DNA of 62,184 nt from Sulfurimonas indica (lineage in GTDB: Bacteria; Campylobacterota; Campylobacteria; Campylobacterales; Sulfurimonadaceae): contig NZ_SDID01000013.1 in assembly GCF_009192995.1 (NCBI RefSeq), positions 1-62,184 of the forward strand. Direction: 5' to 3'. A program made the position numbers and the translations under genes. Positions 2,631-8,234 of this stretch are shown one piece after another; position 1 is the stretch's first letter, and each line of letters begins with the position of its first letter. The notes under the pieces are model-generated. The model saw only the letters and a list, made by a program, of their open reading frames with translations. It was not told the DNA's origin and did not search any database.

Positions 2631-4190
2631 CTACACTAATCCCGGTGCCATCCACATACTCTGTGTCACACCGCTATCAACCAAGCCAAGTTGCACTTCA
2701 TACGCTTTTTGCCACTTCTTTTTTAACTTGTCATAAACCTCTTTGTTTTTTCTATTTGGCATATATTTTTTGTCCAAAACGACAAGCTTCTCTGCCGCAT
2801 CTTCAAGCGTATCATAAACACCGACACCCACACCAGCAGCCATTGCCCCACCAAGTGCTGTTGCCTCTGTCACTTTTGGGATCGTCACTTCACATCCTGT
2901 TACATCCGCGAGTATCTGTGACCAAAGCTCTCCTTTACTTGCTCCACCTGCAAAGACGATTTTTTCTATCTTTATGCCAGAGAAAGCTTCTATCTTTTCA
3001 AGATTGATACTTGAGACGATTGCTGCATTCTCTTCTAAAGCTCGAAATATTGAGATAGTATTGTATTTTTCGCTATCAAGACCGAGATTTAAAAAAGATG
3101 GCGATGCATGATACCACTTGCCATACTTCATAGAGTCTGAAAATATTGGGAGGATTTCATATGAGCCAACAGGAACATTTTGTGCCTTGTTCTCCAAAAC
3201 CTCATATACATCACACCCCTGCTCTTTTGCCTCAAGCTTTTCTAACTGACAAAAAGCATCTCGAAACCATCTCATTACAAGTCCCGAGAAAAATGTAATC
3301 CCCTCTGCCTGAGAGAGGCCCTCTACTACATGGGGGTTAACACGTATGCCCATATCGTTAGGAGGTGTCACATCACTTTTAATATTTACTACCTGCTGCC
3401 AAAAACTCCCGCCAAGAACTGCTACATCACCCTCATTTACTACACCAAGTCCAACAGAGCCAAGTTGCACATCTCCACCACCCATCACTACCTGCGTGAG
3501 TTTATTGAGTCCTGTTTCGTGAGATGCCTCTTGTGTCACGTTTCCTAGAACTTCACCTGTCTCTAAAACCGCAGGAAAAATATCATCTTTAAGTCCAACT
3601 CTCTTTGCCATTTCTTTCTCCCACTTGCGTGAGACAAGAGAAAAAATGCCTGTTGTTCCTGCATTACTTGGATCCACTGCTATTTTTCCACTGAGTTTTG
3701 CTAATATCCAGTCCCCTATCATCGAGATAGAAGCTACTTTTTTATAGATGTCAGGGCGATTATTTTTCAGCCATAAAAGACGAGGCAAGGCTCCAAGAGC
3801 AAAAGTCTGTCCACTCTTTTTGTAAAACTCTTCTTCGATGCCGGGATAGTTCTCTTTTAAATACTTCACCTCATCAGCTGCTCGTGCATCGACATTTGCC
3901 ACACCCCAAAGCTCATTCCCATCTGCATCATAAAGTACTATCCCCTCACGCATACTTGTAGCCGAGAGTGCCAAAATATCATCAGCATTGACATCTTGAA
4001 TAGCCTCTTGAATACAGCTACAAACCAGAGACCAGTTCTGCTCAAAATCAAAGCTCATAGAGTTTGGAATACCATCCTCTTCTAAGTGTGTCCACTCTCT
4101 TTGACTCATTGCAAGTTGATTTCCTTTGGTATCAAAAAGCACCGCACGGATGCTTCCTGTTCCTGCATCTATGGCTAGTAGGTATTTCAT
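2631..4190 (-). CDS. lsrK: Autoinducer-2 kinase (LsrK-like, FGGY family)
   Basis: A 519-residue FGGY carbohydrate kinase that I recognise as close to E. coli LsrK, which phosphorylates the open form of autoinducer-2 (DPD) in the cytosol. Shared stretches include IDAGTGSIRAVLFD at the start, SMREGIVLYDADGNE and NVDARAA near 90-110, GGGDVQLGSVGLGV near 245, GSFWQQVVN near 267, MRWFRDAFC near 312 and a WMAPGL tail. Length is normal. Its start overlaps the stop of the aldolase upstream (ATGA), so the two are translationally coupled. No LsrACDB importer or LsrR repressor is nearby, so uptake and control must differ from the enteric system. A general pentulose kinase is less likely given the LsrK-specific motifs. 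Confidence 0.85.
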   Translation of the reverse strand: MKYLLAIDAGTGSIRAVLFDTKGNQLAMSQREWTHLEEDGIPNSMSFDFEQNWSLVCSCIQEAIQDVNADDILALSATSMREGIVLYDADGNELWGVANVDARAADEVKYLKENYPGIEEEFYKKSGQTFALGALPRLLWLKNNRPDIYKKVASISMIGDWILAKLSGKIAVDPSNAGTTGIFSLVSRKWEKEMAKRVGLKDDIFPAVLETGEVLGNVTQEASHETGLNKLTQVVMGGGDVQLGSVGLGVVNEGDVAVLGGSFWQQVVNIKSDVTPPNDMGIRVNPHVVEGLSQAEGITFFSGLVMRWFRDAFCQLEKLEAKEQGCDVYEVLENKAQNVPVGSYEILPIFSDSMKYGKWYHASPSFLNLGLDSEKYNTISIFRALEENAAIVSSINLEKIEAFSGIKIEKIVFAGGASKGELWSQILADVTGCEVTIPKVTEATALGGAMAAGVGVGVYDTLEDAAEKLVVLDKKYMPNRKNKEVYDKLKKKWQKAYEVQLGLVDSGVTQSMWMAPGLV

Positions 4191-5362
4191 TTTTTAAGTT
4201 TTGCCTGTTCTAATTCCCAGTACTCCATCGCAAAACTATCTTTCTCACTAATGCTTTGATACCCACCAAGTTTATCGGCGCGAAGTACTGCCAACATCGT
4301 ATGTTCTACAATGTCATAAATTATCTTTGCCTCTTCACGACTTTTACCAAAACAGACAACCGCCAAATTTTTGATAATCATATAATTTGGTGCAGGATTG
4401 AGCATTACCTCATCCGTAGCATACTTGTTAAAGTACTCTTTATAAGCTGCAATATATTGTTCTATCCCACCAATAAGGTCCGTATCTTCCATAATAAGCG
4501 GTACACGTTTTGTTCTAATAATATGCTCTGGTGTTAAAACCCCACGTGAAGCGAACTCACGCAGATTTGGTTGTGATGCATAAAAAGCGGCAAGTGGTGT
4601 TTGGTTGATAGCAATGTGAACTTCATGCCCTTTATACTCACTCATCGTTTTTATAACCCGTGCAATATCACAATCACTGTGTACATAATTATGTTCTATA
4701 TGAACAATGGCATTTTCATCCAAAAACTCCTCTGCACGGCTCACGGCATCTATCATTTTAGAGTACGAAGCTTTTGCATCATCATCAAAGGTAAAAATTC
4801 CATGATTATGTAAAATGATACCCTCTATCTCATCCCAGTTCATATTTTTTGTCAATTCATAAATCTTATGCGCCAACTCAAAGCCCGGCATCACATAATC
4901 AACTATCAAAAAGTTCCCAAAAAGCTTGACAATGTGCTCATCTCCATTGACTGAATTTGAGATAGTCACGATTGCATCTGCATGGGTATGGTCCACAAAT
5001 TTGTAGGGTATGAGTGCGTGCAGTATAGCTTCAACCGAAGGGTTTGGAGCATTTTCATCAAGCATCGCCTCACGCTGCAGTGCTACCATTTCCGAATCAC
5101 TCAAATGCTCTCTCTTTGCCATATCAAGCAGCGTGTCAAGATAGACCCCAGAAAAACCTTCCGGTTTAATCGTTGCCAGGTCCCAACCACTCCCTTTTAC
5201 ATAAAGAACATCTTCACCGTTTACTTTGCTCTTAACGGAAGTATTACCACCGCCATGTAGAACCAGTTCATCATTTTCACCAAGTAAATTTGATGTATAT
5301 ACCCGCAATTCCAAGTCATTTTTACAAGCCTCAGCCTGTTTATCTATCCATAAATTATCCAT
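4187..5362 (-). CDS. Class II aldolase/adducin-family protein
   Basis: A 391-residue zinc-dependent aldolase-fold protein. HGGGNTSVK (36-44) binds phosphate in this fold; the metal ligands are H125 and H127 (DHTHAD) and H187 (HNHG); E111 in PSVEAILHAL sits where the catalytic glutamate does. The N-terminal style matches the aldolase half of the rhamnulose-phosphate aldolase/dehydrogenase fusions, but the short-chain dehydrogenase half is absent. It is the middle gene of a three-gene operon, 4 bases from the downstream stop of the small monooxygenase gene and overlapping the kinase. In context it may cleave the phosphorylated autoinducer-2 product, a step done by the unrelated LsrF in enterics. 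The substrate is inference. Confidence 0.8.
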   Translation of the reverse strand: MDNLWIDKQAEACKNDLELRVYTSNLLGENDELVLHGGGNTSVKSKVNGEDVLYVKGSGWDLATIKPEGFSGVYLDTLLDMAKREHLSDSEMVALQREAMLDENAPNPSVEAILHALIPYKFVDHTHADAIVTISNSVNGDEHIVKLFGNFLIVDYVMPGFELAHKIYELTKNMNWDEIEGIILHNHGIFTFDDDAKASYSKMIDAVSRAEEFLDENAIVHIEHNYVHSDCDIARVIKTMSEYKGHEVHIAINQTPLAAFYASQPNLREFASRGVLTPEHIIRTKRVPLIMEDTDLIGGIEQYIAAYKEYFNKYATDEVMLNPAPNYMIIKNLAVVCFGKSREEAKIIYDIVEHTMLAVLRADKLGGYQSISEKDSFAMEYWELEQAKLKK

Positions 5363-5366
5363 AACA

Positions 5367-5654
5367 CTAGCCTAATACTTCCAGCTCATCTGTGTATTTC
5401 TTTTCACAGTATGGCTTATAACTTGATTTATAGACTGCATAGTGAGCAGAAGCTTTATGTCCATCAAGTGCGGCTTCATCTTCCCAAGTCTCTACTGCCA
5501 TAAATTTACGGCGATTGTTCTCATACTGAAATATCTCATAAAAGATACACCCTTTTTCAGCTTTGCTTGGCTTGACCATTGCCCCAAGCAACTCTTTCAT
5601 CTTATCTTCGCAACCCTCTTTCGCGATGAATGTCACCCTTTTTGTAATTGTCAT
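5367..5654 (-). CDS. Antibiotic-biosynthesis-monooxygenase-fold protein (LsrG-like)
   Basis: A 95-residue ferredoxin-like (ABM) domain protein, promoter-proximal gene of the lsrK-like operon. Family features are an N-terminal beta strand (ITKRVTFIAKEG), FYEIFQ in the middle and ETWEDEAALDGHKASAHY with the conserved W and H. The length equals that of LsrG, the ABM protein that isomerises phospho-AI-2 in E. coli; the sequences are only loosely alike. Place in the operon, rather than residues, is the main reason to suggest an LsrG role. It is otherwise a quinol or dimeric heme-degrading type ABM fold. Confidence 0.75.
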   Translation of the reverse strand: MTITKRVTFIAKEGCEDKMKELLGAMVKPSKAEKGCIFYEIFQYENNRRKFMAVETWEDEAALDGHKASAHYAVYKSSYKPYCEKKYTDELEVLG

Positions 5655-5723
5655 TTTATTTCTCTCTTCTTCTTTTTTTTAGTTTTAAAGAGAGATTATA
5701 GCAAAAATTCAATATAATCATAT

Positions 5724-8234
5724 ATGGACTTATTATTACATATTGAAGATATCATAGAAAATAACGGCTCAGACTTTGAACTCTCAAAACTTTTTAAGCA
5801 ATATATCAAAGAGTACAAAGAGTCACTTCCAGAACTTTTTAAAGAGAATCAGGGAAAAGACTTTCTTGTTAAACATACGAAGAAACTCGACTCTATCATT
5901 ACACTGATGTACAAAACTGTACTGCGCCGTCTTTTTGGAAACTATCTGCCTATGCGAAGTCAAATTCCGATAGCAATCGTAGCACTCGGCAGTTACGGAC
6001 GTGAACAGCTCTGTGTCCACAGTGACATTGACCTGCTTATCGTTTATGAAAGAGTTGAAGGGTATCAGACTGAACTCATCATAGAAAAACTTTTCTATCT
6101 TGCCCTTGATGCAGGAATGAAACTCGGGCATCGTGTCCATGAGACAAAAGATCTCTTTAAAGCCGCGAATGAGGAGATCACCATTCGTACATCACTAATG
6201 GAATCCCGTTTTATTACCGGTTCTCCTTTTACCTGGCATGCAACAGAGAGAGAACTGGGTAAAATCAGATCATATCAGCCAAAAAAGTTTATCTTGGCAA
6301 AAATTGAAGAGGCGCAAAAAAGACGGAAAAAGTACCCTATCTCAATGCAGCCTAACATCAAAGAGGGAGTTGGCGGACTGCGTGACTCGCAACTTATCTT
6401 CTGGGTGGCAAAGACCATTTACAATGTCAACAACATTAAAGAACTCAGTGGCAAAATATTTTCAGACGAAGAGTATAAAGAGTTTCGCATCGCATTAGAG
6501 CTTCTTTATCGTGTCCGTTCTGCTCTGCATCTCATCACAGGGAAACAAGAAGACAAACTTCTTTTAGAACACATCCCGCAAGTCAGCTCTATGCTTGGTT
6601 TTAAAAAGCAGGAGAAGTTTGCGTCAAAAGTCCTTCAAGCCGGATGGAGAATCAATAACTTCACGCAGATATTTATCAAAAAAATGGTACGTCCTTTCAT
6701 TGTCGATCCAGCATATATAACAAAGTTCCGTCATGCGAGACTTCGTAAAGGTGTCTATCTCTTAAACGACAGGCTCTTCGCATCTTACAATCTCAAGCCT
6801 CTGCCGATCAATACACTTTTAGAGTTGCTCATCTCTCTTGAAGATAATGATTACCGTTTTGATGCAGGTTTTTTAAACCAGTTTACCTATACAAAAATCT
6901 CACACCCTTTGAATAAAAAAACATACACGCTTATTAAAAAGCTCTTTTACAAAAAACATATAGCATCATTTTTAAAACTTTTCTATGATGCAGGTATTTT
7001 GGCTGAGCTCTTTGCTAACTTCAAAAAAGTGATGCACCTGCCACAATTTGACGGCTATCATCACTACCCTGTCGATATCCACTCCATTAAGTGTGTTCAG
7101 GCTTTGGAAAACATCAAAGAAGACTTCATACAAGAACTCTTTGATAAACTGAGTGAAGAAGAGAAACTGCTTCTAAAAACCGTTGTCTTTTTTCATGACA
7201 GCGGAAAAGGCAGAAAACAAGACCACAGTGAAGTGGGTGCAAAACTCATGCTGCAATTTGCAAAGCACATAGGGCTTGGCGAAGAGCTGAGCTCACGTGC
7301 AGTAACACTGGTCAAACACCATATATTAATGAGCAATGTTGCCTTTAAAGAGAACATTCATAATGAAAAAACTCTCTATAAGTTTATGTCAAGTGTCGGT
7401 GATACGAAAAACCTCAAGCTCCTTTATATCTTGACCTATGCAGACATTAACGGTGTCGGTGGCGATACATACAACTCCTTTAATGCAAAACTGCTTTATG
7501 ATCTTTATAACAGTGCCCTTGAAATCGCAGAAAACAGTGAGAGAATCACCGATGCGAAAAAACGCCTTATCATAGAAAGACGTGTCAAAAACCTTGAAGC
7601 CTTTAAAGCGCTGCCACGTCTTCTACAGAAAAAGATCCTCGCTGTCGAGTCCAATCTTTTCTTTTTTAAACACATACCGCAAGATATCATTGAGATTGCA
7701 AAAAAAGCAAATGCTACTAAAGAGTACAGTTTTACGACAAAAAACAAAGAGTCCCTTACGATTGAAATCTACAGACGTATTCCACTCAATGTCGGCTACC
7801 TGCTTGCAACACTCTCTCATTTAGATGTTGCCTCTATGGAGATTTTTACACTCTTTGACGATATCAAATACTTTAAAATCGAGTTTATTAAAAATGTACA
7901 AGGCAATGAGCTCATCGAAGTGCAAGATATCATTGATAATGCCTTTGATATGAGCAGAGAAGTCCCACTGAAAAAGGTCAATATCAAACGTGATGAGATA
8001 AAAATCGACTGTGAGCATTCAAAAACACATGCCGAACTGAGCATTCATACGCAAAATCAGATGGGACTGCTGGCTTATGTCATGCATAGATTTGAAGAGA
8101 TGCATATCAATATCATTACAGCAAAAATCCATTCAAGCAAATATAAAGTGCGAGACAGCTTCTTAATGGAAAAACAACATGACATATGCGATAATGTCGA
8201 TAAAATTTATGAAATGCTATCAAATGAACAGTAG
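5724..8234 (+). CDS. glnD: Protein-PII uridylyltransferase / uridylyl-removing enzyme
   Basis: Bifunctional nitrogen sensor that adds UMP to PII proteins when glutamine is low and removes it when glutamine is high. It has 836 residues, near the family norm. The nucleotidyltransferase site is GSYG (89-92) with SDIDL (100-104). The HD phosphohydrolase site is H491-D492 in FFHDSGKG. C-terminal ACT repeats cover about 675-830. There is no Shine-Dalgarno sequence before the ATG. A TATAAT at 5713-5718 lies only six bases upstream, so the message could be leaderless. It is followed 12 bases later by glmS. Glutamine use links the two, and gdhA lies further along the window. Confidence 0.93.
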   Translation: MDLLLHIEDIIENNGSDFELSKLFKQYIKEYKESLPELFKENQGKDFLVKHTKKLDSIITLMYKTVLRRLFGNYLPMRSQIPIAIVALGSYGREQLCVHSDIDLLIVYERVEGYQTELIIEKLFYLALDAGMKLGHRVHETKDLFKAANEEITIRTSLMESRFITGSPFTWHATERELGKIRSYQPKKFILAKIEEAQKRRKKYPISMQPNIKEGVGGLRDSQLIFWVAKTIYNVNNIKELSGKIFSDEEYKEFRIALELLYRVRSALHLITGKQEDKLLLEHIPQVSSMLGFKKQEKFASKVLQAGWRINNFTQIFIKKMVRPFIVDPAYITKFRHARLRKGVYLLNDRLFASYNLKPLPINTLLELLISLEDNDYRFDAGFLNQFTYTKISHPLNKKTYTLIKKLFYKKHIASFLKLFYDAGILAELFANFKKVMHLPQFDGYHHYPVDIHSIKCVQALENIKEDFIQELFDKLSEEEKLLLKTVVFFHDSGKGRKQDHSEVGAKLMLQFAKHIGLGEELSSRAVTLVKHHILMSNVAFKENIHNEKTLYKFMSSVGDTKNLKLLYILTYADINGVGGDTYNSFNAKLLYDLYNSALEIAENSERITDAKKRLIIERRVKNLEAFKALPRLLQKKILAVESNLFFFKHIPQDIIEIAKKANATKEYSFTTKNKESLTIEIYRRIPLNVGYLLATLSHLDVASMEIFTLFDDIKYFKIEFIKNVQGNELIEVQDIIDNAFDMSREVPLKKVNIKRDEIKIDCEHSKTHAELSIHTQNQMGLLAYVMHRFEEMHINIITAKIHSSKYKVRDSFLMEKQHDICDNVDKIYEMLSNEQ

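Follow-up and report, generated by a model that had tools for sequence, protein, structure and literature searches.

The window analysed here is a 62,184-nucleotide stretch of the Sulfurimonas indica genome (contig NZ_SDID01000013.1), in which three tightly packed minus-strand genes encode, in order of transcription, an ABM-fold protein of 95 aa (5367-5654), a class II aldolase of 391 aa without a short-chain dehydrogenase/reductase (SDR) half (4187-5362), and a 519-aa kinase of the LsrK type (2631-4190). The stop codon of the ABM gene and the start of the aldolase gene are 4 nt apart, and the aldolase and kinase genes overlap by 4 nt; the three genes are therefore read as one operon. An earlier note, made from the letters alone, had placed a non-canonical Lsr operon at 2631-5654, an interval that the three open reading frames fill. 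The operon is probably an importer-less module that degrades the cell's own autoinducer-2 (AI-2), with the aldolase replacing the LsrF thiolase.

The product of the third gene is, judged by profile scores and substrate-site residues, an LsrK-type autoinducer-2 kinase, predicted to phosphorylate 4,5-dihydroxy-2,3-pentanedione (DPD). It scores 866 bits against the autoinducer-2 kinase model NF008187 (cut-off 528; LsrK of E. coli K-12 itself, 1001), and 207 bits against the next-best kinase family, XylB, which has a cut-off of 380. An E. coli control genome stayed below the LsrK cut-off despite the score of the K-12 protein, and that control strain may lack lsrK. Among structures, that of E. coli LsrK (5ya0) is matched along its full length with 625 bits, compared with 120 for the next best. 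The protein sequence is 54.7% identical to that of E. coli LsrK, as against 20-25% for XylB, RhaB, FucK and GlpK. The putative DPD site, given in the available text of PMC8016206 as T21, S91, M92, R93, D253, V254, F276, Q278, E308 and I310, is kept in full (ten of ten residues), compared with two residues in XylB, one each in RhaB and FucK, and four in GlpK; of ten ATP-site residues, eight are kept (G429 is replaced by A and T342 by E). Nine of the ten substrate-site residues are invariant in all 117 kinases compared, and V254 is present in 116; these kinases, like the 117 aldolases discussed below, were picked by length from clusters over 125 and 123 loci, respectively, with some genomes repeated, and are not independent. 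Model scores and substrate-site residues thus rule out a pentulose or other sugar kinase, and the grouping with LsrK rather than with pentulose kinases bears out what the earlier note had proposed.

Among Campylobacterota, 249 genomes with a completeness of 90% or more were searched; LsrK (above the NF008187 cut-off) and the aldolase (E<=1e-100) are each present in 26 of them, and the two sets of genomes are identical. The ABM protein (E<1e-20) is found in 25 genomes, all of them within the LsrK set, with a best match elsewhere of E 5e-10. These sets exclude weak hits, namely those of the aldolase in G147 (E 6e-6) and G152 (1e-15) and those of the FGGY family in ten genomes. The 26 genomes span 14 genera and 7 families and do not represent independent events; four genera (g1, g4, g6 and g59) include genomes with and without the genes, which are present or absent together. 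The co-occurrence is not due to gene linkage alone, because LsrK and the aldolase are on different contigs in nine of the 26 genomes (G171, G231, G245, G040, G058, G210, G222, G241 and G292) and, in G208, share a contig but are separated by 1.2 Mb. In a separate set in which LsrK was searched alone, it was found in 38 of 60 near relatives.

Gene neighbourhoods were counted in the best 80 of 408 aldolase relatives in genome contigs, some of which share one isolate; the closest are from metagenome-assembled genomes of Sulfurimonas (best identity 88%). The ABM gene is directly upstream of the aldolase gene in 77 of the 80, lsrK lies within 600 bp downstream in 66, and all three genes are contiguous in 63, counts that exclude chance as the origin of the arrangement. 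Five more loci contain lsrK not counted as adjacent, among them L106, where the kinase gene is split and its first piece adjoins the aldolase gene; among the remainder, five end near a contig edge and four have no lsrK in the locus.

The genome of the window encodes LuxS and the S-adenosylhomocysteine (SAH)/methylthioadenosine nucleosidase. Searches with the E. coli proteins found no LsrF in this genome and no credible LsrF in any of the 26 LsrK genomes (five have partial matches of about 30% identity, the best at E 1e-7). LsrB had no match in 25 of the 26 and one 19% match at E 4e-4 in the other, and the PF13407 model had no match in the window's genome; the absence of LsrB and PF13407 matches rules out import of the LsrB type. 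The genome search that the earlier note had called for thus found luxS and no LsrB or PF13407 protein, and the absence of LsrF and of the Lsr importer was correctly foreseen. The absence of the repressor LsrR holds in the vicinity of the genes, no match above 45 bits being found in the window or in 111 loci, many of them short-flanked, with the whole genome not searched.

The three genes have luxS as a neighbour in genus g26, where lsrK, the ABM gene and the aldolase gene lie between a POR-beta-like gene and luxS in three genomes (G178, G221 and G261); at that site the window's genome has POR-alpha, POR-beta and luxS without the three genes. A 2008 survey reported, in its available text, no positive genome in which luxS lay close to the lsr operon (PMC2561040). 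LuxS is encoded in all 26 LsrK genomes and in 208 of the 249 overall, which has a chance probability of 0.007, uncorrected for kinship.

A similar exchange of aldolase for LsrF is observed in plasmid lsr loci that have kept their importer. LsrK (E<=1e-60) is encoded in 79 plasmid records, 53 of them Sinorhizobium, and LsrF (E<=1e-40) in 19, none of them Sinorhizobium. Nine plasmid lsr loci of eight genera were compared: two come from S. meliloti, and one each from Shinella, Rhizobium, Ensifer, Thalassospira, Alloyangia, Tritonibacter and a record whose label, Roseateles, is unverified. In each of them lsrB is followed, where E. coli has lsrF, by the gene for a class II aldolase that shares 36.7-38.4% identity (tblastn) with that of the window. 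LsrR and LsrK are encoded in all nine as well, together with an LsrB sharing 73-80% identity with that of E. coli and an ABM protein sharing 41-54% with E. coli LsrG. In the six loci that are annotated, lsrB is preceded by lsrA and by two genes in the position of lsrCD; three loci have no gene table. No match to LsrF at E<=1e-3 was found within any of the nine loci. Conversely, the lsr loci of Enterobacter, Lacticaseibacillus and E. coli K-12 encode LsrF and no such aldolase. This mutual exclusion was checked in these 12 loci, and calls for caution given that the Shinella zoogloeoides plasmid encodes LsrF about 410 kb from its own lsr locus.

Two further plasmid observations concern LsrK and LsrF. 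In the pSymB record of S. meliloti 1021 (NC_003078.1, 645139-646458; L154, 11140-12480), the LsrK match ends about 75 residues short, possibly owing to a frameshift or a record error; that of strain 2011 is full length. Two Sagittula plasmids (NZ_CP021914.1, 4867-5724; NZ_CP126148.1, 202628-203485) carry an LsrF 72% identical to that of E. coli, annotated together with an FGGY-family kinase, and both records are absent among the LsrK matches listed.

In a tree of 48 aldolases, in which long branches call for caution, the eight plasmid lsr aldolases (with one S. meliloti copy) form one group (support 99/95), and the 28 Campylobacterota aldolases sampled from the 117 that are encoded in such cassettes form another (82/77), adjoined by long forms from Campylobacterota. 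Two rhamnose-linked aldolases (26-30% identical by tblastn) are distant in the tree. The SDR half carried by mtn-linked relatives is missing from both of the stand-alone groups that are linked to lsr genes.

The second gene of the operon encodes a PF00596 protein, as the earlier note had recognized in calling it a class II aldolase. It matches only the aldolase half of bifunctional aldolase/SDR models, scoring 443 bits against a cut-off of 627, and stops where that half stops; no C-terminal SDR domain was found with the NCBIfam models of this type. Residues E111, H115, H125, H127 and H187 are invariant in 37 of 37 and in 117 of 117 relatives. A putative metal site of one Glu and three His was assigned by motif and by the numbering of FucA and RhaD. 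Alignment with FucA and RhaD paired just two His of the four metal ligands, and a regular-expression motif matched 86 of 122 sequences; in the six misses shown, its E/H/HxH part matched and its last-His part did not. The C-terminal region of about 170 residues (window positions 4187-4700) is also well conserved; the best structural match, 3m4r, covers the N-terminal part only, and no listed match appears to span the remainder.

The first gene product matches Pfam ABM at 55.5 bits, and its predicted model (pLDDT 97) has the ABM fold, which many other ABM proteins match equally well; E. coli LsrG (3qmq) ranks eighth among the fold hits (TM 0.92, 19% identity), the higher ranks going to differently annotated ABM proteins. 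When active sites were compared, the His residues that the protein has in common with LsrG proved to be present in other ABM proteins of the alignments too.

In E. coli, according to the available portions of PMC8016206 and PMC7828210, LsrG isomerises phospho-DPD, and LsrF moves the acetyl group of the product to CoA, yielding dihydroxyacetone phosphate (DHAP) and acetyl-CoA. For the operon of the window, we infer a pathway that would begin in the same way: LuxS and the SAH nucleosidase would produce DPD inside the cell, LsrK would phosphorylate it on the primary hydroxyl, and the ABM protein would shift the carbonyl as LsrG does, giving 3-hydroxy-2,4-pentanedione 5-phosphate (P-HPD). Instead of the CoA-dependent LsrF, the presumably metal-dependent class II aldolase would then cleave P-HPD, by enediolate chemistry on the hydrated ketone, in a hydrolytic retro-Claisen cleavage yielding DHAP and, probably, acetate. 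P-HPD written backwards may be viewed as 5-deoxyribulose 1-phosphate with a ketone at C4, and 5-deoxyribulose 1-phosphate is split to DHAP and acetaldehyde by the class II aldolases DrdA and Ald2, as described in the available text of PMC6079011 and PMC10986504. Rhamnulose-1-phosphate aldolases have been reported to accept ketones, to go by a title cited in PMC6302742. The missing SDR half of both stand-alone lsr-linked groups would fit this scheme, because hydrolytic cleavage would leave no aldehyde to reduce. We tentatively propose, with slightly less than even confidence, that the class II aldolase is a hydrolytic phospho-AI-2 lyase (P-HPD + water -> DHAP + acetate) that replaces LsrF in Campylobacterota and in a separate group of Alphaproteobacteria, and that Campylobacterota use it to clear the by-product of their own LuxS, with no import, sensing or repression involved.

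The chemistry of DrdA and Ald2 (PMC6079011, PMC10986504, as far as available) would also suit a reductive variant, in which an unlinked dehydrogenase would reduce P-HPD to a 5-deoxypentulose 1-phosphate, to be cleaved by retro-aldol reaction to DHAP and acetaldehyde. The fusion of known relatives of the aldolase to SDR domains is in keeping with such a variant, as are the five of 26 LsrK genomes that have the long form only; it is nevertheless unlikely, since neither stand-alone lsr-linked group has an SDR half and no reductase gene recurs beside the cassette among the annotated neighbour clusters, which are a minority of several hundred.

Salvage of a 5-deoxypentulose such as 5-deoxyribulose, which the earlier note had offered as an alternative, appears less probable still. 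Here the kinase would make the 1-phosphate, the aldolase would split it, and the ABM protein would serve some other role, with no involvement of AI-2. FGGY kinases are often promiscuous, and fused relatives of the aldolase in Campylobacterota are encoded in mtnK-mtnA or mtnA operons, both of which speak for salvage. However, MtnA (TIGR00512) has no match in the window's genome (G000), where MtnK was not searched for, and among the 26 LsrK genomes it is above the cut-off in eight and not found in 18; salvage of 5-deoxyribose or methylthioribose that depends on MtnA is rejected for the window's genome on this account. The retention of ten out of ten putative DPD-site residues in the kinase, the adjacency to luxS and the lsrF position of the aldolase in LsrB-bearing loci also point to AI-2 rather than to a salvaged pentulose. 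A cut between C3 and C4, splitting the hydrated isomer 3,4,4-trihydroxy-2-pentanone-5-phosphate into phosphoglycolate and hydroxyacetone, is very improbable: the hydrate is a beta-hydroxy ketone and formally a retro-aldol substrate, and 2-phosphoglycolic acid was once reported from phosphorylated AI-2 with LsrG (PMC2728841, in the part available), but class II aldolases hold an enediol intermediate on the metal (PMC6079011, likewise), which for ketose 1-phosphates would be the DHAP half, favouring a C2-C3 cut in DPD numbering.

Disposal of AI-2 through an aldolase in place of LsrF also has several observations against it. The earlier note had described the first gene product as an LsrG-sized ABM-fold protein; its size and fold stood, and yet it is not LsrG by the NF007791 model (25 bits against a cut-off of 135), it shares 23% identity with E. 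coli LsrG, and its nearest Protein Data Bank match by both sequence and fold is PA3566. The same cut-off is missed by the ABM proteins of the lsr loci in the Roseateles-labelled record (107) and Thalassospira (121), E. coli LsrG scoring 192. The ABM protein is missing from G245. Separate contigs are no proof of distance, and a contig end lies close to one of the two genes in G058 and in G292. The aldolase belongs to a diverse family, in which sugar ABC importers are the neighbours of relatives of similar identity and rhamnose genes those of more distant relatives (26-30%). The plasmid and Campylobacterota aldolases are separate groups in the tree, and a substrate signature common to both was sought and rejected, only two distinctive positions being shared; independent recruitment of the aldolase to LsrK in the two groups is possible. 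Finally, five of the 26 LsrK genomes have only a long, SDR-type aldolase, with mtnA adjacent in three and 1.6 kb away in one.

In these five genomes (G171, G231, G208, G245 and G040) lsrK is located elsewhere. The long aldolase is beside mtnA and mtnK in G171, G231 and G208; a 534-aa form is 1.6 kb from mtnA in G245, and the long form of G040 has no mtn neighbours. Between a pair of flanking genes where its relative G162 has the cassette aldolase, G208 has none but retains the ABM gene.

Several of these points set the operon apart from known systems. Like the canonical E. coli lsr operon (lsrACDBFG with lsrRK), it has LsrK and an ABM-fold protein in the presumed role of LsrG, with DPD taken as the substrate; unlike E. 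coli, the genome has no LsrB or LsrF that could be found and no LsrR near the cassette, and an aldolase stands in for LsrF. The nine plasmid loci resemble it in pairing LsrK with a stand-alone class II aldolase homologous to that of the window and in the lack of an LsrF within the locus, but retain importer and regulator, and their ABM proteins are closer to LsrG. The DHAP shunt or 5-deoxyribose salvage pathway (MtnK, MtnA, and Ald2 or DrdA) also releases DHAP from a 5-deoxy ketose 1-phosphate by means of a class II aldolase, and fused Campylobacterota relatives of the aldolase occur in mtnA operons, whereas the window's genome has no MtnA that could be found and its kinase is an FGGY-type LsrK, not MtnK. 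The bifunctional rhamnulose-1-phosphate aldolase/SDR proteins (TIGR02632, PRK08324) have a homologous aldolase half; the aldolase of the window lacks their SDR half and falls below the model cut-offs, and the two rhamnose-linked copies are on a separate branch. A different end to AI-2 degradation, as anticipated in the earlier note, is strongly supported by comparative genomics, namely the 26-of-26 co-occurrence, the luxS neighbourhood in three genomes and the lsrF position on plasmids.

No published description of the operon or of the aldolase-for-LsrF exchange was found in a literature search that covered few subscription papers, so that a mention there (for instance, in work on AI-2 in S. 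meliloti) is possible. The fate of AI-2 in bacteria without LsrF was called undetermined in 2021 (PMC7828210, available text), and for species in which no receptor is known, the role of luxS has been viewed as chiefly metabolic (PMC2561040, available text). The aldolase is a specific candidate enzyme for AI-2 disposal without LsrF, found in importer-bearing and importer-less lsr loci alike. It also suggests that, among environmental bacteria with luxS, many recycle DPD as a by-product of metabolism rather than signal with it, which would agree with that view of luxS.

The operon is separated by a 69-bp gap (5655-5723), where upstream signals would be expected, from a divergent open reading frame of 836 aa that starts at 5724. 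Two promoter-like matches on the minus strand (5751-5787) are just outside this gap; the scan gave six matches in the region compared with 8.1 (standard deviation 3.2) in shuffles, fewer than expected, and has little meaning. On the other side, between lsrK and mqnE, a gene for a putative nuclease of the Uma2 family (PF05685) is present at 2049-2585, belonging to a cluster found in only five loci, including the window.

A gene for S-adenosylmethionine (SAM) synthetase (MetK) adjoins lsrK in eight of the loci listed, several of them from the genus of the window (for example, L121, 6490-7719; L119, 6577-7839; L125, 3458-4657), and in L109 (822-2021) it sits within the cassette. In G171, G231 and G245, the MetK encoded beside lsrK is the lower-scoring of two copies. 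MetK was not included as a partner in the module, other genomes carrying it elsewhere.

Long-form aldolases are beside or near mtnA in L118, L120, L122 and L124, with mtnK also present in the first three. The SDR domain was identified by scan in the long form of L120 only, those of L118, L122 and L126 being fusions by length and clustering, and that of L124 being shorter (534 aa). The Campylobacterota loci that combine mtnA with a long-form aldolase are likely to be operons for salvage of SAM by-products. Rhizobial aldolase-SDR fusions are encoded after an LsrR-like regulator (26% identical to E. coli LsrR), facing a sugar ABC importer, in L165 and L166, with no LsrK in the stretch examined, and presumably serve some sugar pathway; in Ruegeria (L167) mtnA adjoins a gene for a bifunctional aldolase/SDR.

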